Of a stretch of DNA of 38,311 nt, positions 2,293 to 13,798 are shown piece by piece (position 1 is the first letter of the stretch; each line of letters starts with the position of its first letter). The stretch covers positions 1-38,311 of the forward strand of contig CAMARB010000015.1 in assembly GCA_945860355.1 (NCBI GenBank), given 5' to 3'. The notes beneath the pieces are model-generated. The model saw nothing but the letters and a program-made list of their open reading frames with translations. It did not search any database and was not told the DNA's origin. This DNA comes from Chthoniobacter flavus. GTDB lineage: Bacteria > Verrucomicrobiota > Verrucomicrobiia > Chthoniobacterales > Chthoniobacteraceae. The translations under genes were made by a program, and so were the position numbers.

Positions 2293-3747
2293 TTAAAACG
2301 AAGCGGAAATGTTCTGCTCCTCGAGCACGTTGTAGCGCCGCTTGATCCGGCTGCGGGCGGCCTCCACGGCGGCCCGCTCCAGAACCAGCGGCCGTCCAAC
2401 GCCCACAAATTTGAGGACGTAAAACTCCGTCTTTTCCTCGAACGCTTCGGCCAGATCCTTGAGGGCGTTGATTTTTTTGCCGTTCACCTCGTCCACAATA
2501 CCCTCCTTAAAATCGCCCAGATAGGTGTTGATCGGGTCGGGCAGGATCGAGCTGAGGATGATGACGCTGGGATGCGTTTTGTAGAGTTCCTTGGAAACGA
2601 ACGCGTCGAAAAAGTAGCCGATCCGCGGGTTGGCGAACTGATAGGCGCCGGTCAGGTTCCGGGAGAGGGGCTGGAAAAGCAGGCCGCCGAACAGGACGTA
2701 ATCGGGTTGTTGCTCGTAGGTGTTGGCTTGCAGGGTGTAGGGCCAGGCCCGGTCGAACTTCACGGTCAAACTCTGCTCTTTGCCCTCGCGCAGCACCGAG
2801 AACCGGACCGAATCCCCCAGAAACTTGCGCTCGGCCACCTCGGCCATCAGCACCCGTTCCCCGTCGAGCTCCACCATGCCGTCGCTGAACACCGGATGCC
2901 CGTCGATGGCGAGAATCACGTCACCCTCCTTCAAGACCCCCGCGCACACGCCCGCCGATTGCACGCTGCTGACCACCACCCCGCGCCCGTCGTCCGGCAG
3001 ATTCAAGGCGCGCCGGTGGGCCGGGTTGAGCAGGTTAAACGTGTTCAACGAGAGATCCATGTAACGGTCATAACGACCGTCGGCGATGTCCTGCAGGAAC
3101 CGCTGAATGACGGGGGTCGGAATCATGTAACCCACGTTCTGAGCCACGTCGCCGCTGTATCCCTGGAAGGCGACCCCCACCACCTTGGAGTCCTGCAAAA
3201 CCGGGCCGCCGCTGTTGCCCGGATTGATGGCCGCGTCGATTTGAATGCAGAGATGCGAGTCGAGCAGCGAGTGGGAATAGGTCCGGAAATCGACCCGGGA
3301 AACAATGCCGCGGGTGACCGAGAGCCGGTCGCCGCCGATCGGGTAACCGAACACCGAAACCGTCGACTCAATCTCGGGCAGCGCGCCCAGGGGCAGCGGT
3401 TTGGTGTCCTTGAAGAAAGAGGGGTCATCCACCTTCAGAAGCGCCAGATCACAGTCGTGGGCGATGTGCTCCACAGTGGCGATGTACTTCTTGGGATCGT
3501 TCTCTTTTTCCACCGTCAAAAAACGGGCGTTGCTCACCACATGCGCGTTGGTGAGCAAACGTTCCTTTTCCACCACCCAACCCGTGCCCGAGCCGCCGCC
3601 GGTCTGCCCCGGCAACCACGGGATCCGGTAATTGGGGACCTGGGCGGTGTTGGTGATCCGCGCCAAACTCTTGCGCACCTCGTTGGGCTGGGCCCATGCC
3701 GATGCCGTCGTCAAAGCCAGAGCAATCAGAAGCTGCGGGACACGCAT
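2293..3747 (-). CDS. Secreted S1C-type serine protease with PDZ domains (DegP/HtrA-like)
   Basis: The track's 540-residue ORF begins too early. The start MRVPQLLIALALTTASAWAQ (ATG at 3747; an ATG at 3753 adds two residues) gives 484 residues with a clean signal peptide cleaved near residue 20. The trypsin fold carries the full triad: His69 in LTNAHVVSN, Asp100 in HDCDLALLK and Ser179 in NPGNSGGPVL. PDZ-like repeats follow (GVVVSSVQSAGVCAGVLKEGDVILAIDG, then a second, more diverged region with FKEGIVDEVNGKKI). HtrA/DegP proteins degrade or refold damaged envelope proteins. This one is longer than classical DegQ because of the extended C-terminal half. It is followed at 12 bp by a catalytically dead paralogue. 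No Shine-Dalgarno site is visible. Family assignment is firm; substrate is unknown. Confidence 0.9.
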   Translation of the reverse strand: MRVPQLLIALALTTASAWAQPNEVRKSLARITNTAQVPNYRIPWLPGQTGGGSGTGWVVEKERLLTNAHVVSNARFLTVEKENDPKKYIATVEHIAHDCDLALLKVDDPSFFKDTKPLPLGALPEIESTVSVFGYPIGGDRLSVTRGIVSRVDFRTYSHSLLDSHLCIQIDAAINPGNSGGPVLQDSKVVGVAFQGYSGDVAQNVGYMIPTPVIQRFLQDIADGRYDRYMDLSLNTFNLLNPAHRRALNLPDDGRGVVVSSVQSAGVCAGVLKEGDVILAIDGHPVFSDGMVELDGERVLMAEVAERKFLGDSVRFSVLREGKEQSLTVKFDRAWPYTLQANTYEQQPDYVLFGGLLFQPLSRNLTGAYQFANPRIGYFFDAFVSKELYKTHPSVIILSSILPDPINTYLGDFKEGIVDEVNGKKINALKDLAEAFEEKTEFYVLKFVGVGRPLVLERAAVEAARSRIKRRYNVLEEQNISASF

Positions 3748-3871
3748 GATCATAAGTCGCAGAAGATGGGGGCAAGTTTTGACCCTGTAAAATGGAATGT
3801 CAGAAGGGAATTGGGCGCCCGGGACGGCGCGAAAATGGTCGGGGTTCGCACGCGAAAAAAGGGCGCCGTTT

Positions 3872-5152
3872 TCAGCCCCGCGCCAATGCCTGGCGCACCT
3901 CGGTCGCCTCGGCAAACGCCTGCCGGATCACACCCGCCACCCGTTCAATCTCGCGGGGGCCAACGGCCGTGCCTGTGGGCAGGGCCAGGATCCGATCCGA
4001 AAGCCGCTCGGTGTTGGGCAGGTTCGCCCCGGCCTCCGGATAAAGGGTGCGGTAAGGTTCCATGCGATGGCATCCGGGGAAAAAATACCGCCGGGCCAGG
4101 ACGTTGTCCGCGTGCAGCACCCGCAGCAGCTCGTCGCGGGTCAGCGGGCACACCGTCGGATCCACCTCCATAACGACGTACTGGTAGTTGCCGCGCTCGG
4201 ATGGATCGTAGGGAATGAGGGTCAACCCGGGGATGCCCGCGAGCTGGGTGGCGTAGGCGGCGTGGTTGCGCCGGTTCATGGCGATGAACGAGTCGATGCT
4301 CTCCAGGCTGGTGATTCCCATGGCCGCGCACACCTCGGTCATCTTCGCGTTCATCCCGAGGTATTGGACCGTGTCGTAGCCCGTGAACCCGAAGTTGCGC
4401 ATGAGCCGCAGTTTCTGGGCGAGTTCATCGTTGTCCGTGACCACCGCCCCGCCCTCAAAGCTGTTGAGGAACTTGGTTGCGTGAAAACTAAAGACTTCAG
4501 CGTCCCCGAAATGCCCCACCAACGTGCCCTTGTGCGAACAACCGAAGGCGTGGCTGGCGTCAAAAAGCAGACGGAGCTTGTGGCGGCGCGCAATGTCCTC
4601 CAAGGCCGCCGTGTCGCACGTGCGCCCCCAGAGATGGACTCCGATGATGCCCGTGGTGCGGGGGCTGATGAGCCGCTCCACGGACTCCGGATTCAACGTG
4701 TGCGTCTCGGGATCCACGTCGCAAAACACGGGTTTGGTTTGCTGCCATTGCAGCGCGTGCGCGGTCGCCACGAAGGTGAAGGAGGGCAGGATGACCTCGC
4801 CCTGCAAATCCAGGCCCCGCATGGCGAGCATCAAGGCGGTCGTTCCGTTGCAGGTCACCAGGCAATGTTTGACCCCGATGTAATCCGAAATGCGTTTCTC
4901 AAACTCCCGCACATACGGCCCGTCGTTGGAGAGCCAACGCGTGTCGAGCATCTGGTCGATCCGCTGCTGCAGATCCGCCCGGTTGCCGATGTTGGGCCGC
5001 CCCACATGGAGCGGTTCGCGAAATGCGGGGAGCCCCCCCAGGATCGCCAGTTGGCGCGGCGCGCCGCCCAAGTCCGGCTCGGCTGGGATGGCCTCGACCA
5101 AATCCAATTCGGGCATTGGGTCCGGGAACTCCTTGATTTGAGGGATCGCCAT
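3872..5152 (-). CDS. DegT/DnrJ/EryC1-type PLP sugar aminotransferase
   Basis: The start is placed at ATG 5152 (MAIPQIKEF), 13 bp after the upstream stop, because the longer ORF would run back into the neighbouring gene; this gives 426 residues. Family marks are VTCNGTTALMLA (about 100), the PLP-ring Asp198 in LLFDASHAFG, and the Schiff-base lysine Lys227 in SFHATKFLNSFEGG, followed by the GCHRMEPYRTLYP segment near the C-terminus. These enzymes aminate nucleotide-linked keto sugars, commonly dTDP-4-keto-6-deoxyhexoses, using glutamate. An N-terminal stretch of about 35 residues precedes the usual domain start. As the last gene of the nine-gene locus, next to a NeuD-like acyltransferase, it most likely supplies the amino sugar that is then N-acylated. 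A VioA/QdtB/WecE-like role is inference; regiochemistry cannot be read from sequence. Confidence 0.88.
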   Translation of the reverse strand: MAIPQIKEFPDPMPELDLVEAIPAEPDLGGAPRQLAILGGLPAFREPLHVGRPNIGNRADLQQRIDQMLDTRWLSNDGPYVREFEKRISDYIGVKHCLVTCNGTTALMLAMRGLDLQGEVILPSFTFVATAHALQWQQTKPVFCDVDPETHTLNPESVERLISPRTTGIIGVHLWGRTCDTAALEDIARRHKLRLLFDASHAFGCSHKGTLVGHFGDAEVFSFHATKFLNSFEGGAVVTDNDELAQKLRLMRNFGFTGYDTVQYLGMNAKMTEVCAAMGITSLESIDSFIAMNRRNHAAYATQLAGIPGLTLIPYDPSERGNYQYVVMEVDPTVCPLTRDELLRVLHADNVLARRYFFPGCHRMEPYRTLYPEAGANLPNTERLSDRILALPTGTAVGPREIERVAGVIRQAFAEATEVRQALARG

Positions 5153-5165
5153 AAGAATAGGGGGG

Positions 5166-5984
5166 TTACTTGATTTGCCGCGCTGGAACACCAAAGACCG
5201 TGGCGCCTTCCGGCACATTCTGGATCACCACGCTGCCGGCGCCCACCGTCGCGCCCGCGCCCACGGTGATGTCCGGCAACACCACCGCGTGACTGCCGAT
5301 CTGCACCTCGTCGCCGATCACCGCGCGACCCAGGATACTGGCAAACGGCGCCACCTGCACAAACGAGCCCATCCGCACGTCGTGGGCGACACTCACGTGG
5401 CTGAGGATCGTCGAGAAATCGCCGATCCGGCTGTTGACGCCGACACCGGTGAACGCCTCGATGATGACGCCCTCTCCGAGGCAGACACTGGCAGCGAGGC
5501 TGGCCGAGGGTTGAACCAGGTTCACAAAACGGGCGCCGCGGCCGCGCAGCCGGTCGCAGACCTTTTTGCGCCCGGCCACATCCCCGATGGCGCAGATGAA
5601 CACCTCTTCGGGGCCGGGCGCATGGTCTGTCCCTCCCACAATCGGAGGCAATTCCGCAAAACCCTCCAGCGCATCGGGGATGTCGTTGAGAAACCCGCGG
5701 ACAACCCATTCCCGGCCCGAACCGCGCGCGGTTTGCGACATCCCGAAAATCTCGCGGCCGTAGCCACCCGCCCCGACGATGAGCAGCGACTTAGGCCCTG
5801 AAAACACCGGGCGCGGACCGGGATTGCTCCCGGGGTTGAAGGGGCTTCCGGCGGGCTTGTTTCCCAGAGCGCACCACGCCTCAAACTCCTGCCAAGCCCC
5901 CAACTCGTCGGAGGGCATGATGAACGTGGACCCGGATTCCTCCAATCGTTCCACGCCAAACTCCACGAGCCGAAACCCGATCAT
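5166..5984 (-). CDS. NeuD/PglD-type sugar N-acyltransferase with N-terminal extension
   Basis: The start at ATG 5984 (MIGFRLVEF) is chosen because GGGGAGGGGG sits just upstream, one of only two clear Shine-Dalgarno sites in the window; the longer ORF uses a GTG at 6107. 272 residues. After about 66 residues of unassigned sequence comes the typical two-part fold: a Rossmann-like N-domain (SLLIVGAGGYGREIF) and a left-handed beta-helix of hexapeptide repeats (RIGDFSTILSHV, VRMGSFVQVAP, AVIGDEVQIGSHAVV, VTVGAGATVGAGSVV) ending GVPARQIK. The likely catalytic His lies in SVAHDV, matching the His of PglD. These enzymes transfer acyl groups to sugar amines. With an ACP and ketosynthases in the same operon, the donor may be an acyl-ACP rather than acetyl-CoA; that is inference. 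Confidence 0.85.
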   Translation of the reverse strand: MIGFRLVEFGVERLEESGSTFIMPSDELGAWQEFEAWCALGNKPAGSPFNPGSNPGPRPVFSGPKSLLIVGAGGYGREIFGMSQTARGSGREWVVRGFLNDIPDALEGFAELPPIVGGTDHAPGPEEVFICAIGDVAGRKKVCDRLRGRGARFVNLVQPSASLAASVCLGEGVIIEAFTGVGVNSRIGDFSTILSHVSVAHDVRMGSFVQVAPFASILGRAVIGDEVQIGSHAVVLPDITVGAGATVGAGSVVIQNVPEGATVFGVPARQIK

Positions 5985-6141
5985 AACGCCCCCTCCCCTG
6001 CCAGGCGGCGGCGCACCCGATTCCCCGCCGACGCCCCGCCGCCTCCCGGACCAAGCGCCGACAATCCGGGGACGCACCGTGCCAAACACGATGCGGCTCT
6101 GGGACACCGGCAGGGGGAACAGGCAGGCGCGCGCATAAAAC

Positions 6142-7188
6142 TTACACCTCGAGGATTTCCGGACAGACGAGGTTCTCCGTCGTCAGGACAGCGCTGGACC
6201 AGGCCAAACCCGGGCCGACCCCGCCCAGAAGCGAAATCCTGCGTCCGGCGCGGAGCTCGGAGCGTCCCCGGGCGAGCATGGCCAGCGGCAGGGTGCCCGA
6301 TCCGCTCAAGCCGTATTCGAAAACAGGGCCGCAGTATTTGTCTGAAGGAATCCCCAGCGCCCGGCACAAAGCCGTGTCACCCGCCATGCTCAACGGCTCA
6401 AAGTAGCCCCGGTCCAGGTCCGAGGAAGTAACGCCGGCGGCTTGGAGCACCCGGGAAACCGACCCGGGCAGTTCACGGAGGGCGGCCGCTTCCACGGCCT
6501 GGCAATCCAAACTGTAGCCGCTGGCCCGTTCGATCCCCTCCGGGGTGGAGAACATCTCCGGGTTGGGCGGGTTTCGGACGCCCCCCACGGGCATGTAAAG
6601 GGCCTCAAAAGCGGCGCCGTCGCCGCCGCTGTCAAAATGCAGGGCCGGGGCGTCCGCCTGGTATTCCAGCGCGCAAACGCTCCCGCCGTGTCCGTCAATC
6701 GTGGAAAACAACGTTTCGCCGGCCACACTCGAGACCGACTTGGACACCTCGCCGGTGAGCAGGAGCCCCCGCTTGAGGTGGCCGGCCCCGAGCATACTCG
6801 CCAGCACCTGGAGCCCGTGAAGAAAACCCAGGCTGCCCGACGGCAAATCAAACGCCACCGCCGTCTTCGGAATCCCGAGCCGGTCCTGGACGATAATCGC
6901 CGTGGCGGGGATGGGATAATCCGGCGTCAACGTGGTCATGATCACCACGTCGATTTGAGCCGGTTCCCAGCCCAAATCCGCGAGTAGGCGCCGCGAGGCG
7001 TCGACGCAGAAATCCGACTGGCACTGTTCCCATCGGGCCCTGCGCTGAAGGGCGCGCACGTTGCGGCGCCGGGCCGAGGCGAGCTGGGCGGCGCTCAGTT
7101 CGAGTTGTTCGAGCGGGATGTCCCGCAGGGGCGGCACGGCGGCAGCCAACCCGGCGATGCGGACATTGGGAATTGAAAGAGTGGGCAT
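6142..7188 (-). CDS. Catalytically degenerate KASIII (FabH-like) partner protein
   Basis: 348 residues, colinear over the whole length with the intact KASIII-like protein encoded two genes upstream (shared IAGxxxAVP start, PDYPIPATA, LKRGLLLTGEVSK and the C-terminal VCPEILEV). All three thiolase-fold catalytic residues are changed: Cys119 of the partner aligns with Ser119 (SGSLGF against LGCSGY), the His of FHQAN aligns with Glu264 (YFEPLS), and the Asn of DFGNTSS aligns with Leu294 (EYGLSGS). The protein should fold but not condense acyl chains, so a heterodimer subunit, as PqsB is to PqsC, is the best explanation. Its start codon overlaps the SDR stop as TAATG, which suggests coupled translation and matched stoichiometry. 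Confidence 0.87.
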   Translation of the reverse strand: MPTLSIPNVRIAGLAAAVPPLRDIPLEQLELSAAQLASARRRNVRALQRRARWEQCQSDFCVDASRRLLADLGWEPAQIDVVIMTTLTPDYPIPATAIIVQDRLGIPKTAVAFDLPSGSLGFLHGLQVLASMLGAGHLKRGLLLTGEVSKSVSSVAGETLFSTIDGHGGSVCALEYQADAPALHFDSGGDGAAFEALYMPVGGVRNPPNPEMFSTPEGIERASGYSLDCQAVEAAALRELPGSVSRVLQAAGVTSSDLDRGYFEPLSMAGDTALCRALGIPSDKYCGPVFEYGLSGSGTLPLAMLARGRSELRAGRRISLLGGVGPGLAWSSAVLTTENLVCPEILEV

Positions 7189-7925
7189 TAGGTCAAACCT
7201 CCATCCATGATGAGATTGGTGCCGGTGATCCAGCGGCTGGCCGGGGACAGGTAGAACACCACCGTGCTGGCGACATCCTCGGGAAGCCCGTATCCCAGCG
7301 GATACCGGGCCTCGTCCGCCGCAACCACCTCGGCGCTGACTTGGTTGGCAAACCCGTCCACCACCTCCGTTTTCACCATGCCCGGCGAGATGCAGTTGGC
7401 GCGAATGGCGTTACCGGAGAGTTCATGGGCCAGGACCCGGGCGATGCCCACCAGCGCCGCTTTGGAGCCGGCGTAAATGGAGTGGCCGCGCGCCCCGATA
7501 AACGCGCCGAGCGACGCGATAAACACGATGGAACCGCCGTTTTTGAGCCGCCGGGTTTTGAAAAGCCGCTGGGTGAGGAAAAGCGGCGCTTCGACGTTGA
7601 TGGCATACACCTCCCGGTAGCGCTTCTCGTCGCTGAATTTGAAGGGGTGCAGCAAAGTCACCCCCGCGCAGTGGGCGATCCCGTCCAGGGGCGGCAGTTT
7701 CGCCACGAACTCGTCCCGGTTTTGCTCATGGACCAAGTCGGCGGGAACCGCCGAGTGATTCCCCGGGGCCAACTCCGCGAGCACGGCGCTGAGTTTCGCC
7801 TCGCTGCGTCCGGTGACGATCACCTCCGCCCCCATCTGCGAGGCGGTGATCGCCGTCTGGCGGCCGATGCCTCCCGTGGCGCCGGTGACGAGGATGGTTT
7901 TTCCGACCAAATGAAACGGGGTCAT
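7188..7925 (-). CDS. SDR-family 3-oxoacyl-ACP reductase (FabG-like)
   Basis: 245 residues, the normal length for a classical short-chain dehydrogenase. The NAD(P) glycine motif TGATGGIG is at 14-21, AHCAG follows beta-4, and the catalytic set is Asn110, Ser138 (FIASLGAF), Tyr151 and Lys155 (YAGSK). The tail ITGTNLIMDGGLT is typical of FabG-type enzymes. It would reduce a 3-oxoacyl-ACP made by the flanking ketosynthase to the 3-hydroxyacyl-ACP. The start overlaps the upstream ketosynthase stop as ATGA and the stop overlaps the downstream pseudo-ketosynthase start as TAATG, so the three proteins are translationally linked. Family is certain; substrate is inferred from neighbours. Confidence 0.9.
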   Translation of the reverse strand: MTPFHLVGKTILVTGATGGIGRQTAITASQMGAEVIVTGRSEAKLSAVLAELAPGNHSAVPADLVHEQNRDEFVAKLPPLDGIAHCAGVTLLHPFKFSDEKRYREVYAINVEAPLFLTQRLFKTRRLKNGGSIVFIASLGAFIGARGHSIYAGSKAALVGIARVLAHELSGNAIRANCISPGMVKTEVVDGFANQVSAEVVAADEARYPLGYGLPEDVASTVVFYLSPASRWITGTNLIMDGGLT

Positions 7926-8974
7926 ACCTCAATGAGTTCCGGACAGACGACGCCGTCGCTTTCCCAGCAGACGGACGCCCAGGAAAGGCCCACGCCGAAC
8001 CCGGACATCACCACCTTCATGGGCTTGGAGGCGAGCGCCTCGCGCATTTGTGCGGTCAGAGTCAGGGGCACGGTGGCCGAGCTCGTGTTCCCGAAATCGT
8101 AGAGCGTCGAGGGCAGTTGCGGGGGCTTGATCCCGATTTTGCGGGCCACCTGGCTGTTGATGAACAGGTTGGCCTGATGAAACACAAATGCGTCGATGTC
8201 CGGCACGGTGTGCCCGGAGTACTCAAGAAGGCGCTTAATGGAGACGGGGATCTCCCGCATCGTGAAATTCATGATCTCGGCCGCGTCCAGCACCACGTCC
8301 GTCTCGCCCCGCGACCCGCCCCCGTCGAGCGCCGCCTTCTCAAAGGACTGGGAGCCCACCGGATTGCGGCATCCGCCCGCGGGCACATAGATGACCTTGA
8401 ATCCGCCGCCGTCGCTGCCCATTTCAAACTGCATGGGCTTGGCGTCGGCGCTGCACTCCATGGCGGTGGCGGTGCCCGCATGCCCGAAGAGCACGGCGCT
8501 GGCGGGATCCGAGTCGCCGTGCATCTTGGAGACGTCTCCGGCCAGGAGCAGGCCCCGCTTCAAGCCGGAGTTTTCAAGCAAACTGCCCAGCACATACAAT
8601 CCGTAGGTGTATCCCGAGCAACCCAGGTTCACGTCGAAAGCCAGCGCCGATTTCGGCAGACCCATCCGGGCCTGGATGAGCTGCGCCGTGGCTGGGAACG
8701 GGTAATCCGCCGTTTGCGAAACAAACACCACGGCCCCAATCTCCTCGGGCCCCCAGCCCAGCTCCTTGAGCAGACGCTCGGCGGATGCCTGGCAAAGATC
8801 CGAGCAACACAACTCTTTGGGCGCCCAACGCCGGAACCGGATCCCGGTGTATTTGATGATCTTCTCGCGTTGTTCCTCGCTGAGCAGACCGTAATCCGAG
8901 TTGGAAACAATCTGCCGCGGAACCGCCGAAGCGACTCCCGCGATCCGAGCCCGGCGGAGGGTGGCCAGTGCCAT
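7922..8974 (-). CDS. 3-oxoacyl-ACP synthase III (KASIII/FabH-like), intact catalytic triad
   Basis: 350 residues with the full thiolase-fold triad of initiating condensing enzymes: Cys119 in DVNLGCSGYTYGL, His266 in FVFHQANLFI and Asn296 in DFGNTSSATVPL. Such enzymes condense an acyl-CoA starter with malonyl-ACP. A separate house-keeping fabH would normally sit in the fatty-acid operon; here the gene is in a sugar-modification locus, 4 bp downstream of a dedicated ACP, so it probably makes a short 3-oxoacyl chain for decoration of a sugar. It is followed by the ketoreductase (ATGA overlap) and a catalytically dead paralogue, suggesting a heteromeric synthase. No Shine-Dalgarno site precedes the ATG. 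Confidence 0.9.
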   Translation of the reverse strand: MALATLRRARIAGVASAVPRQIVSNSDYGLLSEEQREKIIKYTGIRFRRWAPKELCCSDLCQASAERLLKELGWGPEEIGAVVFVSQTADYPFPATAQLIQARMGLPKSALAFDVNLGCSGYTYGLYVLGSLLENSGLKRGLLLAGDVSKMHGDSDPASAVLFGHAGTATAMECSADAKPMQFEMGSDGGGFKVIYVPAGGCRNPVGSQSFEKAALDGGGSRGETDVVLDAAEIMNFTMREIPVSIKRLLEYSGHTVPDIDAFVFHQANLFINSQVARKIGIKPPQLPSTLYDFGNTSSATVPLTLTAQMREALASKPMKVVMSGFGVGLSWASVCWESDGVVCPELIEV

Positions 8975-8978
8975 GGAA

Positions 8979-9224
8979 TCAGGCGGCCTTGAGCGCTTTT
9001 TTGGCGACGACCAATTTGTACACGTCTTCCAACGTGTCGCATTGCTTGAGCTCCATGCCCGGGACCTGCACTTCGTATTCGCAATCGATCATTGCGAGCA
9101 GGCAGAGCAGCGCCAGGGAATCCCACTGCGGAATGCGGTGGTACTGGGTTTGCGGGGTCAAAGACTCGGGTTCGATGCCTTCCACGGCGTTTTCGAAATG
9201 GCGGACGAATTGTTCAACTTCCAT
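8979..9224 (-). CDS. Acyl carrier protein
   Basis: 81 residues, the usual ACP size. The phosphopantetheine attachment Ser36 lies in QWDSLALLCLLAMID, matching the DSL motif, with a preceding acidic helix and the expected four-helix spacing. The C-terminus ends in a short Lys/Ala tail (VAKKALKAA). It differs from fatty-acid AcpP, which has a more acidic helix II and a DSLDTVEL motif, so it looks like a pathway-specific carrier. It sits between the Rieske oxygenase gene (39 bp away) and the active KASIII gene (4 bp away). The acyl group built here is probably handed to the NeuD-like transferase. The leader before ATG is C-rich (ACCACCCCT). Confidence 0.9.
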   Translation of the reverse strand: MEVEQFVRHFENAVEGIEPESLTPQTQYHRIPQWDSLALLCLLAMIDCEYEVQVPGMELKQCDTLEDVYKLVVAKKALKAA

Positions 9225-9263: not shown

Positions 9264-10439
9264 TTAATCAAAATTCATGCTCGCGGCGTACGCCTCGTGG
9301 AACGCGCAGATCCGCTGCTCTTCATCGCTGAGCACGCCGGCGCCGTGGGCAAACCCCACCGAACGCTGGACCTGCTCACAAATCGCGGCGTCCTCGGCAA
9401 AGATCGCCTGCACAAACTCGGCAGCCGAACGGTAGAACTGCTTTTTGAGCGCCAGCTCCATCTTGCTGAGTTCCCCAAGGCCGCTTGTCGCAAAGAGGTA
9501 ACTCGTTAAAACCGTGGTCTTTTCGTCAATCGGCAGGATCCGCTGCAAGCTGAATGATTCGCCCCGGGTCGATGCGAGGACAAAGTTGGGGTAGAGATAA
9601 AAATGCCGATACCCCTCGATGCGTTGGGGCCGCCGCGCAAGGAATTTGTAGGCGCGATCCATGCGCGCGGACACCTCGGCATTCAACGGCGAAAAAACAG
9701 CCGAATTCCGGCCCGCAAACCGGAAGAAACTCGCCTTCTGCCCCCCCGGCTCGGCGTCCGACTCCGGGGCGCCCTGGGCAGACTCCGGGGCCGGCCCCGC
9801 CAAACCCGACATACCCAGTTTCCGGATCGTGTCCGGATGCACGCAATCGACGTGGTAACCCTCCAGCGTGTTCTCCACCACCAGCTTCCAGTTCGCGTTC
9901 ACGCGGTGTTCGGTGTGCTCGACCACCTCGCCAAAGGCGCTCGCCAACTGCGAAACGGGTGCCCAGAAATCGCCCCACTGGCGCTCAAAATCGTCTTCCG
10001 CAAGGGTCTCGCCGGGGTTCTCCCGCTTGATGAAAACCAGGGGCCCGAGGAACCGCACATGCCAGCGCACCAGCCGGTAGTCGCAGAGCGTCTGCGGGGT
10101 GATCTCCGAGATGAGCGGCTTGCGGGGGATCGCGTAGGGCAGCCCCTCGGCGTTGTAGATCCAGCCGTGATAGGGGCATTTGAGCTGCCGGTTCCCGCAC
10201 GGCTCCGTCTGCAACCGGGCGAACCGGTGGGAACAGACGTTGTTAAATGCGCGGATTTCGCCGCCGAAATTCTGGAGCACCACCGAGACGTTCCCCACGT
10301 CGATGCAACGAAAGTCCTGGTCCTTCGAAAGCTCATGAAGGCTGCAGGCGAAAATCCATTCCCGCTCGAAAATACGCTTCAACTCGAGCGCGAGCACGCC
10401 GGGGTCAACGTATTGGGAGGGAGCGATCAGGGGTTTCAT
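9264..10439 (-). CDS. Rieske non-haem iron oxygenase, alpha-subunit type
   Basis: 391 residues. The Rieske [2Fe-2S] domain has C69-x-H71 (CSHRF) and C88-x2-H91 (CPYHGW). The catalytic mononuclear iron site is His196 and His201 in NTLEGYHVDCVH, with the third ligand probably the Asp of the C-terminal FAEDAAICEQVQ segment. Overall it is closest in layout to choline-monooxygenase/GbcA-type and other single-component Rieske oxygenases. No reductase or ferredoxin gene is nearby, so electrons must come from elsewhere. Its start overlaps the FkbM stop as TGATG, which ties it to the glycan locus. It could hydroxylate the acyl chain or oxidise the sugar; the substrate cannot be read from sequence. Confidence 0.9.
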   Translation of the reverse strand: MKPLIAPSQYVDPGVLALELKRIFEREWIFACSLHELSKDQDFRCIDVGNVSVVLQNFGGEIRAFNNVCSHRFARLQTEPCGNRQLKCPYHGWIYNAEGLPYAIPRKPLISEITPQTLCDYRLVRWHVRFLGPLVFIKRENPGETLAEDDFERQWGDFWAPVSQLASAFGEVVEHTEHRVNANWKLVVENTLEGYHVDCVHPDTIRKLGMSGLAGPAPESAQGAPESDAEPGGQKASFFRFAGRNSAVFSPLNAEVSARMDRAYKFLARRPQRIEGYRHFYLYPNFVLASTRGESFSLQRILPIDEKTTVLTSYLFATSGLGELSKMELALKKQFYRSAAEFVQAIFAEDAAICEQVQRSVGFAHGAGVLSDEEQRICAFHEAYAASMNFD

Positions 10440-11647
10440 CAGTCGGCAAATGCGTAGAAGACGGAGTCGTAGCGGGTGTTGCTGTGATGGCGCAGCCCAA
10501 AACGGTATCCGCGGTCGAGGCTCTGCAAATAACGGGGCAAATCAATGAGATCCGACGGCCGATGCGAGGTGCAGGCCGCAACCTTCGGGCGCTCAGCGGC
10601 GAGATGCCGACTGGCCCCGTGCAAGATACCGAGGCTTTGCCCCGCCATATCCAGCCGCAGAAAAGAGACCTCCTCCTCCAGCGATTCATCCAGACAGACC
10701 ACCGCCGCGGACTGCGCATCGGTCGGTTCGCCCAACCCGTCCAAGTCCGGCAGCGCCGACGGGATGCAGACTCCCACGCCCCGCCACGGGTTCACATCCA
10801 GCGTCCCCGTGCAGCGCCCCACCACCTCCCGCCGCAGGTGGATTCTCTGCGAGTAGTCGTAGAAAGACTGCCGGTTAAGCCATTTCTCCAGCCGCTCAAA
10901 TTCAGCCGGATCGGGTTCAAACGCGTGAATCCTCCCGAACCGCCCTTTCGCGGCCCGGATGAAACTGCGGACGTGATCGCCGCTACCCGCGCCGCAATCC
11001 ACGTAAACCTCCTCGGAGCCTACCCCGAGAACGCCGGAGCGAAAATACGCGGCATCCGCGGGTCGGTTCAGGGCGAGAAGATATTCCCGGTCCGCTTCGA
11101 GGTGGGAGAGAAGGAACGCGTAAAAGGTCTCCACGGAGAGCGGATCCACCCAGAGTTTTTCCAGCGCGAGGCAATCCCCCAGGCGGGAGGTGATGAACGG
11201 CAGCCAATCGGCGAGTTGAATATCGGTCTCCAGGCGCAAGGCGCGGACCATCTGGAGGTAGTTGAGCATCTTCAGCCCCTTTTCCGATGCGAGCACCTCA
11301 AAGTGGCTGTATCCGGCGTCCGACTGGCCGGTGTTCACGCACACCACTTCCGGACGGTCCTGCACGAGCTCCACCAACCCACGGGTGTCCAGGCAGGGAT
11401 ACCCCATGATGTGGTTGCCCGCGTGCGCATCGTCCACAACCGCCAAAATCTCCAAGTCCCCCAGCTGCCGCGCGTAGTGGAGAAACGCGGACGCCCAGTA
11501 ACCGGTGCCGCAACACACGACGGGCACCTCGCGCACACGGCCCAGGTAATCCTCGTCCGCCCAAGCAGGGAGCCCGAACCCGGGATTGCCGCAAGCCTGC
11601 TCGACGGCTGTCTCCAGGCGGTGTTTGAGATGAGCGATTCGGTTCAT
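10439..11647 (-). CDS. FkbM-family methyltransferase with N-terminal Rossmann-like domain
   Basis: 402 residues. An N-terminal nucleotide-binding-like domain (VPVVCCGTGYWASAF about 41-55, then LAVVDDAHAGNHIMGYPCL) resembles the sugar-O-acyltransferase/PglD-type Rossmann unit often joined to FkbM proteins. The C-terminal methyltransferase has SAM motif I VYVDCGAGSGDH (about 214-225), HAFEPDPAEFERL (241-253), and an FkbM tail (RLDMAGQSLGILHGA, then PRYLQSLDRGYRFGLRHHS). The family-typical D-I-E-G-A-E motif reads D-M-A-G-Q-S here; the first Asp is kept. FkbM enzymes O-methylate sugars or hydroxyl groups. In this locus it could methylate the amino sugar ring or the hydroxyacyl group. It lies 8 bp after the glycosyltransferase stop and overlaps the Rieske gene. 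Confidence 0.85.
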   Translation of the reverse strand: MNRIAHLKHRLETAVEQACGNPGFGLPAWADEDYLGRVREVPVVCCGTGYWASAFLHYARQLGDLEILAVVDDAHAGNHIMGYPCLDTRGLVELVQDRPEVVCVNTGQSDAGYSHFEVLASEKGLKMLNYLQMVRALRLETDIQLADWLPFITSRLGDCLALEKLWVDPLSVETFYAFLLSHLEADREYLLALNRPADAAYFRSGVLGVGSEEVYVDCGAGSGDHVRSFIRAAKGRFGRIHAFEPDPAEFERLEKWLNRQSFYDYSQRIHLRREVVGRCTGTLDVNPWRGVGVCIPSALPDLDGLGEPTDAQSAAVVCLDESLEEEVSFLRLDMAGQSLGILHGASRHLAAERPKVAACTSHRPSDLIDLPRYLQSLDRGYRFGLRHHSNTRYDSVFYAFAD

Positions 11648-11655
11648 GGCTGTGT

Positions 11656-13779
11656 TCAGTTTTCAACCGCGAGGGCCGGCTCCGGAAGGGCGAGCTCCGG
11701 CAGACGCGCATTCGCGGCGGGCGCCTGCCGGGCGCACCAACGCTGCCACATGCCGCGGAACGCTTTTTCCAAACACCGGGTGAACGCGCTGCCGTCGCCC
11801 AGCACGGGATCCAGCCGCCCGCGAAGGCTCGCGCGGCACCGGCCCAAAAACTCCAGATCCGCGGCCGCAGCCACGGCTTTTTCCACATACTCCTCCGGGC
11901 TGCGCGCGATCAACTCGGGCAACCCCAAAGACGTCAGCAAGACGGCCCCGGAACGCTCGGCGCTCCCCGTCCCCTGCAGCGTGACAAACGGAACCCCCAT
12001 CCAGGCCGCCAGGATGTTGGTGGTGCCGCCCGTGTAGGGAAAGGTGTCGAGCAGGAAATCCACGCGGTGATGCAGCTTGAGGTAATCGGCCACCGGTTGG
12101 CGTTCGATGAGCTCGATACGCTCCGGAGCGATCCCGTGCGACTCCAGAACGCTCCGGACCGGGTTCCCCGCGCGCCCGACGACCAGCAGTTTTGAGCCGG
12201 GCACGGCGGCCAGCACCCGGGCCCAGGTCGCGAGCACGTCCGGGCCCACTTTCGCCAGGTTATTAAAAGAGGCGAACGTCACGAACCCGTTCTCCGCGGC
12301 CGGCAACCCGTTGACCGGCGGGCAATCCGCGGGGGGCCGGAACGTCGAAGCGCCCAGCTCCAGCCGCACGAGTTCCTCGGTGTTCCACCGCTCGGAGACG
12401 CCCGGGGGATCCATCGCCTCGTCGGTGATGCGGTAGTCCATCGCCCGCAGACCCGTGGTCTGCATGTAACCGATCATGCCCACCTGCACCGGCGCCGGTT
12501 TGCGGGCGAACACCATGAGCCGGTTGCGCGAGGTGTGCCCGGAGAGATCCACCAGGATGTCGATTGCGTCCTCTCGGATGAGCGCGGCCAACTCGTCATC
12601 GCTCATTCCCAGCACGTTGTGCCAGCGCTCCACCAACCCCTCCAACCGCTGGCTCATGGCATCGCGCTCGGCTTGGTTGGCGTACACAAAAAACTCACAG
12701 TCCTCCATCCGATGCGCCGCGAAAACGGGCTCCATGAAATAGGCCACCGGGTGCTCCCGCAGATCGCCCGAAACAAAACCCACACGCAGGGGGCGCAGCG
12801 GGTCCGGCAGGACCGTGTGCGGCCGCCAGGAAGCGCGGAGCGGCTCGGCGAACCGCTCCCCGAACCGGCAATGCTCCGCAAACAACCGCTCGCGGTCGGT
12901 CCCGGGCAGGTAATTCAGACCAAAGAGCAGATTGCTAAACGCGTGCCGGTAATCGGGTTTGAGTTCCAGCGCGCGACGGAAAGACGCCACCGCCTCCTGC
13001 GTCCGCCCCAGCTCGTTGAGCGCCGCACCCAGGTTGTTGTGAAGCAGGGCGGACCCGGGCTGGATCCGAAGCGCCTTGCTGTAACAGGTCAAGGAGTCCG
13101 AAAACCGCCCCAGATCCTTGAGCACATTGCCGAGGTTGTTGAGGGCCGTGACCGATTCCGGGTTCAACTCCAAGGCCCGGAGATAGGCGCCAATCGCGTC
13201 CCCGCCCCGGGACTGCGCATGGAGCACCACGCCCAGATTCGTGTATGTGACGTCGCTCGGCTCGTGGAGCTTCAGCGATTCCCGGTAACAGTCCTCCGCC
13301 TCCAGGTAGCGCCCGAGTTCCTTGAGAGCGATCCCCAGGTTGTTGTGAAAAACATACGACCCCGGGTTCAGCGCCAAGGCCCGCCGGTAACATTGCGCCG
13401 CCTCGGAATACCGCCCCTGTTCCTTCAACGCGTTGCCCAAATTGGAGTGCGCAAAATCCGCCTTCGGGTCCGCTTCCAGCGCCAGCTGATAAAACTCGAT
13501 GGCCTCCTCCAAACGCCCCTGCTCCTTGAGCACACCCGCCAGGTTGCTGATCGCCGCCGCGCTGCTTTCGTCCACCCGCAGGGATTCCGTGATGAATTCC
13601 TGAGCGGCATCCAAGTTCCCCAACCGTTGTTCCACCAGCCCGAGCAAATGCAGCGCCTCGGCGTGACGCGGGTTTTGCGCGATCAGCTGGCGGCAAATTT
13701 TGCCCGCTTCCGCGAGGTTCCCCGCCTCGTGATAGCGGTGAGCCTGCTCCATTTGGGAGGAAGAGGGGCGATTTTGCAT
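11656..13779 (-). CDS. TPR-containing OGT/SPINDLY-type protein glycosyltransferase (GT41-like)
   Basis: The ATG at 13779 (MQNRPSSSQ) is preferred over a GTG at 13797 that lies inside a palindrome; this gives 707 residues. About eight tetratricopeptide repeats fill residues 10-300 (for example NLGNALKEQGRYSEAAQCYRRAL). The catalytic half has the GT41 hallmarks VGFVSGDLREHPVAYF, ILVDLSGHTSRNRL, PVQVGMIGYMQTTG, ASFNNLAKVGPDVL and LLDTFPYTGGTTNILAAWMGVPFVTLQG. Relatives transfer a sugar from a nucleotide donor to Ser/Thr of proteins recognised by the TPR helix. As first gene of the locus it is the natural end-user of the modified amino sugar made by the downstream enzymes. No flagellin or adhesin gene is visible in the window, so the target is unknown. 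Confidence 0.9.
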   Translation of the reverse strand: MQNRPSSSQMEQAHRYHEAGNLAEAGKICRQLIAQNPRHAEALHLLGLVEQRLGNLDAAQEFITESLRVDESSAAAISNLAGVLKEQGRLEEAIEFYQLALEADPKADFAHSNLGNALKEQGRYSEAAQCYRRALALNPGSYVFHNNLGIALKELGRYLEAEDCYRESLKLHEPSDVTYTNLGVVLHAQSRGGDAIGAYLRALELNPESVTALNNLGNVLKDLGRFSDSLTCYSKALRIQPGSALLHNNLGAALNELGRTQEAVASFRRALELKPDYRHAFSNLLFGLNYLPGTDRERLFAEHCRFGERFAEPLRASWRPHTVLPDPLRPLRVGFVSGDLREHPVAYFMEPVFAAHRMEDCEFFVYANQAERDAMSQRLEGLVERWHNVLGMSDDELAALIREDAIDILVDLSGHTSRNRLMVFARKPAPVQVGMIGYMQTTGLRAMDYRITDEAMDPPGVSERWNTEELVRLELGASTFRPPADCPPVNGLPAAENGFVTFASFNNLAKVGPDVLATWARVLAAVPGSKLLVVGRAGNPVRSVLESHGIAPERIELIERQPVADYLKLHHRVDFLLDTFPYTGGTTNILAAWMGVPFVTLQGTGSAERSGAVLLTSLGLPELIARSPEEYVEKAVAAAADLEFLGRCRASLRGRLDPVLGDGSAFTRCLEKAFRGMWQRWCARQAPAANARLPELALPEPALAVEN

Positions 13780-13782
13780 GCG

Positions 13783-13798
13783 CGTGCTACGTAGCACG
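13783..13798. promoter_or_regulatory. 16-bp perfect palindrome at the head of the glycan locus
   Basis: CGTGCTACGTAGCACG reads identically on both strands and ends 3 bp before the chosen start codon of the TPR glycosyltransferase gene. It could be an operator for a dimeric repressor or, in RNA, a hairpin masking the start. An alternative GTG start lies inside it. No regulator gene is adjacent. Confidence 0.4.

Follow-up and report, generated by a model that had tools for sequence, protein, structure and literature searches.

Type II polyketide synthases pair a live with a dead condensing-enzyme paralogue, the ketosynthase and the chain-length factor, but these are KASI/II-type proteins rather than KASIII and offer an analogy only. 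Among KASIII-fold proteins, live/dead pairs as such are already known from two systems. In PqsBC of Pseudomonas aeruginosa, which acts in quinolone synthesis, PqsB, which is without all three catalytic residues, associates with PqsC in a FabH-like pseudo-dimer (PMC4807248); an earlier sequence-only reading of the DNA studied here had drawn this comparison, which is apt in that the dead protein described below likewise has none of the three. The lipstatin synthase LstAB, which joins two acyl-CoAs, consists of a live, full-triad KASIII and a diverged, adjacently encoded KASIII-like partner that is 23% identical to it and contributes an essential Glu60, and neither LstA nor LstB is soluble without the other (PMC12141560). 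The viosamine island of P. syringae (vioA, vioB, vioS, vioR, acp, vioM and vioT) has a single KASIII, and its vioS, vioR, acp and vioB genes have been proposed to build a 3-hydroxybutyryl group and attach it to a flagellin amino sugar (PMC3927599). Here we describe a live/dead KASIII pair that occurs as sister copies in a predicted sugar-acylation cassette.

The window, by which we mean the whole 38,311-nucleotide stretch of a Chthoniobacter flavus contig that was analysed, contains two KASIII genes with a ketoreductase (KR) gene between them that overlaps each, all three on the minus strand. They lie among the following features:

3872..5218, minus strand: DegT-family sugar 4-aminotransferase (PF01041, E 2.5e-109; TIGR04427, 526 bits, below the cut-off of 650)
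5166..6107, minus strand: NeuD/PglB/VioB-family sugar N-acyltransferase (TIGR03570, 168.6 bits, cut-off 160.8)
6142..7188, minus strand: catalytically dead KASIII paralogue, 348 aa (PF08541 above cut-off, PF08545 unmatched)
7188..7925, minus strand: SDR ketoreductase (FabG/VioR-like), 245 aa (PF13561, PF00106; YxxxK motif, reading YAGSK)
7922..8974, minus strand: live KASIII (VioS-like priming ketosynthase), 350 aa (ORF and motif; PF08541 and PF08545 above cut-off)
8979..9224, minus strand: dedicated acyl carrier protein (ACP) with a DSL serine (PF00550 above cut-off; QWDSL)
9264..10439, minus strand: Rieske non-haem iron oxygenase, alpha-subunit type (PF00355, PF00848)
10439..11647, minus strand: FkbM-family methyltransferase (PF05050 and TIGR01444 above cut-offs)
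11656..13797, minus strand: TPR and glycosyltransferase family 41 (GT41, OGT-like) protein (PF13844 and TPR families)

Transcription runs from the GT41-type gene through FkbM, Rieske, ACP, live KASIII, KR, dead KASIII and NeuD/VioB to DegT. About 100 residues precede PglD_N in the NeuD ORF, the start of which possibly lies further in, unless the protein has an extra N-terminal part.

The two KASIII proteins share 126/354 identities (36%; BLASTP) between residues 1-348 of the dead copy and 1-350 of the live copy, and because the E-value is 1e-70 over the full length their likeness is not due to chance; the end-to-end alignment previously made by eye is thus borne out. In the live copy, the nucleophile, His and Asn motifs read NLGCSG, VFHQAN and FGNTSS and supply the Cys119, His266 and Asn296 triad of catalytic KASIIIs, whereas the dead copy reads PSGSLG, YFEPLS and YGLSGS and has Ser119, Glu264 and Leu294 in their place. 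These catalytic columns were identical across separate alignments, confirming the Cys-to-Ser, His-to-Glu and Asn-to-Leu changes first noticed in the sequence-only reading. That reading had set one outcome against itself, a Cys/His/Asn triad elsewhere in the second protein; a proper alignment and an inventory of histidines across the dead protein found none, its sole His residues (124, 137, 167 and 184) all lying outside the His motif. Of the two family domains, the active-site domain PF08545 is matched by the live KASIII only and the C-terminal domain PF08541 by both. The shared termini noted earlier are present in both proteins (VCPELIEV and VCPEILEV), although such a C-terminal tail occurs throughout the family and is not peculiar to the pair. 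Likewise, the ATGA overlap at the live/KR junction (GTATGACC) and the TAATG overlap at the KR/dead junction (CCTAATGCC) can both be read in the sequence; however, they had been offered as an argument for an obligate heteromer, and on their own they provide none for a heteromer of any kind because live/live KASIII-KR-KASIII cassettes are similarly tight.

Some near-invariant positions are altered even in the live KASIII (Asp165 to His, Gly231 to Ala and Phe235 to Met; residues flagged were 161, 165, 231 and 235). Residues 231 and 235 are near the helix that we presume to correspond to the Met207-Phe213 pocket helix of FabH, and these changes may be a sign of an unusual substrate.

The loss of the triad in the second KASIII is not pseudogene decay, since its frame is intact, its codon bias normal and its KASIII fold retained, and since its losses gather in the cis-catalytic motifs, with the substrate loop retained. 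The frame is open over 348 codons with no stop and no frameshift; when random substitutions were simulated on the live gene until identity had fallen to 38%, 6.7 stops arose on average. GC3 is 0.80, like that of the neighbours, and GC by codon position also matches neighbouring genes. A functionless relic heading for loss would fit a gene that has a long branch, is the single known example and is missing from all same-genus relatives searched, but we consider it improbable, given zero stops or frameshifts where neutral decay predicts several, a normal codon structure, a selective pattern of loss and overlapping genes. An artefact of sequence or binning might be suspected in a metagenome-type assembly of 276 contigs and 86.5% completeness; it is very improbable, as an intact paralogue of 36% identity is not producible by assembly error and a GC3 of about 0.8 is common to genes along the contig.

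The AlphaFold model of the dead copy has the KASIII fold (pLDDT 83.7; Z 41.8 to PDB 4efi, with 338 residues aligned at 27% identity), with residues 152-163 and 217-223 at low confidence, and the model of the live copy scores higher (pLDDT 93.1; Z 52.0 to PDB 4efi, 338 residues aligned). Both predicted structures show the full-length thiolase-type fold of FabH-like KASIIIs. Losses were then scored over 63 columns that are at least 85% conserved among 112 live relatives. The dead copy misses 27 of these columns and the live window copy seven, against a median of three and a maximum of 11 among live homologues. Within catalytic segments, the limits of which were drawn by the analyst, 20/27 conserved columns are lost in the dead copy, compared with 7/36 elsewhere (p 2e-5, Fisher test). 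The substrate loop and the next helix keep 10/14 conserved columns, a number equalled by the live copy and inside the spread seen among live enzymes (24/112 live homologues are at or below it), whereas the four cis motifs together keep 10/29, which nearly all live homologues equal or exceed. As retention of the loop differs from that of the cis motifs at p 0.048 but not significantly from that of the rest of the protein (p 0.26), it is a hint and not proof.

In the predicted secondary structure of the dead copy, Ser119 falls at the nucleophile elbow and Glu264 falls within the His loop, and the Tyr that the family conserves at position 124 is now a His on the same helix as Ser119. Such residues could belong to a second protein with switched chemistry, in which Ser119, perhaps with His124 or Glu264, would act as an acyltransferase or hydrolase on acyl-ACP. 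We regard this too as improbable: neither the His motif nor the Asn survives, the GFGVG motif has become GVGPG and the dead copy contains no other triad-like residues. Its substrate loop reads TPDYPIPATA, with Ile93 in place of the Phe93 of the live copy, which is the equivalent of E. coli FabH Phe87. A trans glutamate like that of LstB was rejected because this loop has no Glu.

A tree of 34 sequences makes the dead copy sister to its live neighbour (support 99/89), with an end branch roughly five times as long (2.37 versus 0.43), and the two have GH in common at position 165, where most relatives have GD. Orthology of the dead gene with the second KASIII that lies downstream of KR in other cassettes was rejected by the AU test (p-AU 0.002), while a placement just outside the local clade survives the AU test (p-AU 0.17). 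Given the sister placement and the rejection of the downstream-KASIII clade, the likeliest origin of the dead copy is a duplication, either of the live gene or of a near relative, followed by fast evolution.

Among 168 KASIII ORFs read, 164 carry Cys/His/Asn and two are truncated where their loci end; the remaining two are a chimera and the dead copy of the window. No further dead KASIII was present among the 166 other KASIII ORFs in the retrieved loci, which agrees with the earlier remark that a dead partner in a sugar-modification locus is unusual. The SHN case in locus L107 was discarded as a second dead KASIII; this ORF (L107:6474-7256) has an acetyltransferase-like start fused to the C-terminal half of a KASIII and is either an assembly chimera or a real fusion. 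Every homologue read in overlapping genome sets spanning the family (40 genomes), order (213), class (384) and phylum (387) was a live KASIII, with no second dead example, and the same-genus relatives searched contained no dead copy. Exact peptide patterns, which detect close kin only, found no close kin of the dead protein in genome_contigs or viral_contigs, and a phage or plasmid origin was rejected, the matches there being just distant KASIIIs. Searches of open-access papers likewise found no dead KASIII in glycan loci. The KASIII-KR-KASIII layout itself recurs in about ten other complete loci, all of them live/live. The ACP-KASIII-KR-KASIII cassettes of Bacteroidota, Spirochaetota and other Verrucomicrobiota-like genomes (for example L023, L106 and L126) resemble the window in having KR flanked by KASIIIs, often near sugar genes, but both of their copies have Cys/His/Asn and the second comes from another clade. 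Three sugar loci (L089, L108 and L136) hold three to five KASIII genes apiece, with all triads intact.

The surroundings of the pair correspond to the viosamine island, as a sugar aminotransferase, a NeuD/VioB acyltransferase, a KASIII, a KR and an ACP are encoded together and are accompanied, as in that island, by a methyltransferase and a glycosyltransferase; the published seven-gene list has neither a Rieske gene nor a dead copy (PMC3927599). The DegT enzyme is closest to dTDP-4-dehydro-6-deoxyglucose aminotransferase (DesI/VioA-like). By this analogy, the product of the cassette is probably an N-(3-hydroxyacyl) amino sugar, and the finished sugar is probably transferred by the GT41-type protein. 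Flagellin is a plausible target because the genome has several flagellin-domain genes (seven matches, several in tandem; G000:C165, C23 and C146, loci L144-L150). The basic gene set can do without the dead copy, since a Methylovorus locus (L064) has GT41, DegT, ACP, KASIII, KR, NeuD and FkbM together, with a GT41-type gene at its head and no dead copy.

Two further observations concern neighbouring genes. Rieske genes recur beside KASIII, KR and sugar genes in Azospirillum, Methylophilaceae, Shewanella, Flavobacterium and others (L061, L062, L064, L068, L069, L117 and L128-L133). Additionally, 685-2280 and 2293-3915, both on the minus strand, encode adjoining Do/Deg9-like PDZ_3 proteins that are 25% identical and form an apparent second live/dead pair: a trypsin domain containing NAHVV and GNSGGP is present in the upstream protein, while the downstream one, aligned over 485 residues, has neither motif nor any trypsin-domain match.

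From the observed sequence, predicted fold, triad loss, ancestry, open frame and context, we infer a dimer, a role in trans and a substrate for the pair. We lean, if only slightly, towards a live/dead KASIII heterodimer with the dead copy as its non-catalytic subunit, acting in acyl supply for amino-sugar N-acylation, because PqsBC and LstAB show that a triad-less KASIII-like protein can be a required subunit. The live KASIII would condense a short acyl-CoA with malonyl-ACP, KR would reduce the condensation product, and NeuD/VioB would move the 3-hydroxyacyl group onto the 4-amino sugar that the DegT enzyme supplies; judging from their families and from the viosamine island, the FkbM, Rieske and GT41-type enzymes would complete and transfer the sugar. 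The dead KASIII would be a copy of the live one that no longer catalyses in cis and is kept as a structural subunit, pairing with the live copy in the ordinary KASIII dimer arrangement. The substrate loop of FabH lines the pocket of the partner subunit. FabH residue 87, in this loop, sets acyl-primer length, and its equivalent in PqsD, coming from the second monomer, lines the channel (PMC3734052). The substrate loop of the dead copy (DYPIPATA, with Ile93) may thus reach the live active site and stabilise or tune its acyl-primer pocket, in the manner of PqsB.

Against the heterodimer, loop retention is not significantly higher than that of the remaining protein, and the live copy is 51% identical to the Methylovorus L064 KASIII, which has no dead partner. 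As similar KASIIIs occur without such a partner, the live KASIII may be a self-sufficient homodimer. As an alternative, the dead protein would be a homodimeric pseudoenzyme outside the live dimer, serving as a scaffold, a binder of ACP or acyl-ACP or a regulator of the pathway, and its preserved fold and frame agree with this, although the dimer-forming parts are expected to be kept either way. We think this unlikely, since proteins so closely related and of the same fold would probably mix subunits unless actively prevented, and since the described triad-less KASIIIs, PqsB and LstB, act as heterodimers.

The proposed heterodimer resembles PqsBC and LstAB in that live and triad-less KASIII-fold genes share a neighbourhood, here with KR between them. 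The live copy has the full triad, unlike PqsC, which is without the Asn; PqsB is far more diverged from its partner than these sisters are; and the predicted function is acyl-ACP supply rather than quinolone synthesis. For LstAB, no ACP, KR or sugar setting is described. Nor is the dead copy kin to PqsB: the sequences closest to it are KASIIIs from sugar loci and the live copy beside it, and a search of PDB chains returned PqsC at only 2e-5 with no PqsB chain among the matches listed. PqsB also did not come up as a better structural match for its model than ordinary FabHs, although this absence is no proof of anything. It is possible, though we would not yet count on it, that a live/dead KASIII heterodimer evolved independently in sugar acylation, with subunits that are still recognisable sisters and a dead loop that reshapes the primer pocket of its partner.

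The weight of these findings is limited because they come from a single locus. PqsB and LstB are too diverged for a clear origin, whereas the window pair still groups together. If the heterodimer is real, the steps from a homodimer to a live/dead pair would be testable residue by residue, and short acyl chains on bacterial surface sugars could be set by a non-catalytic subunit.
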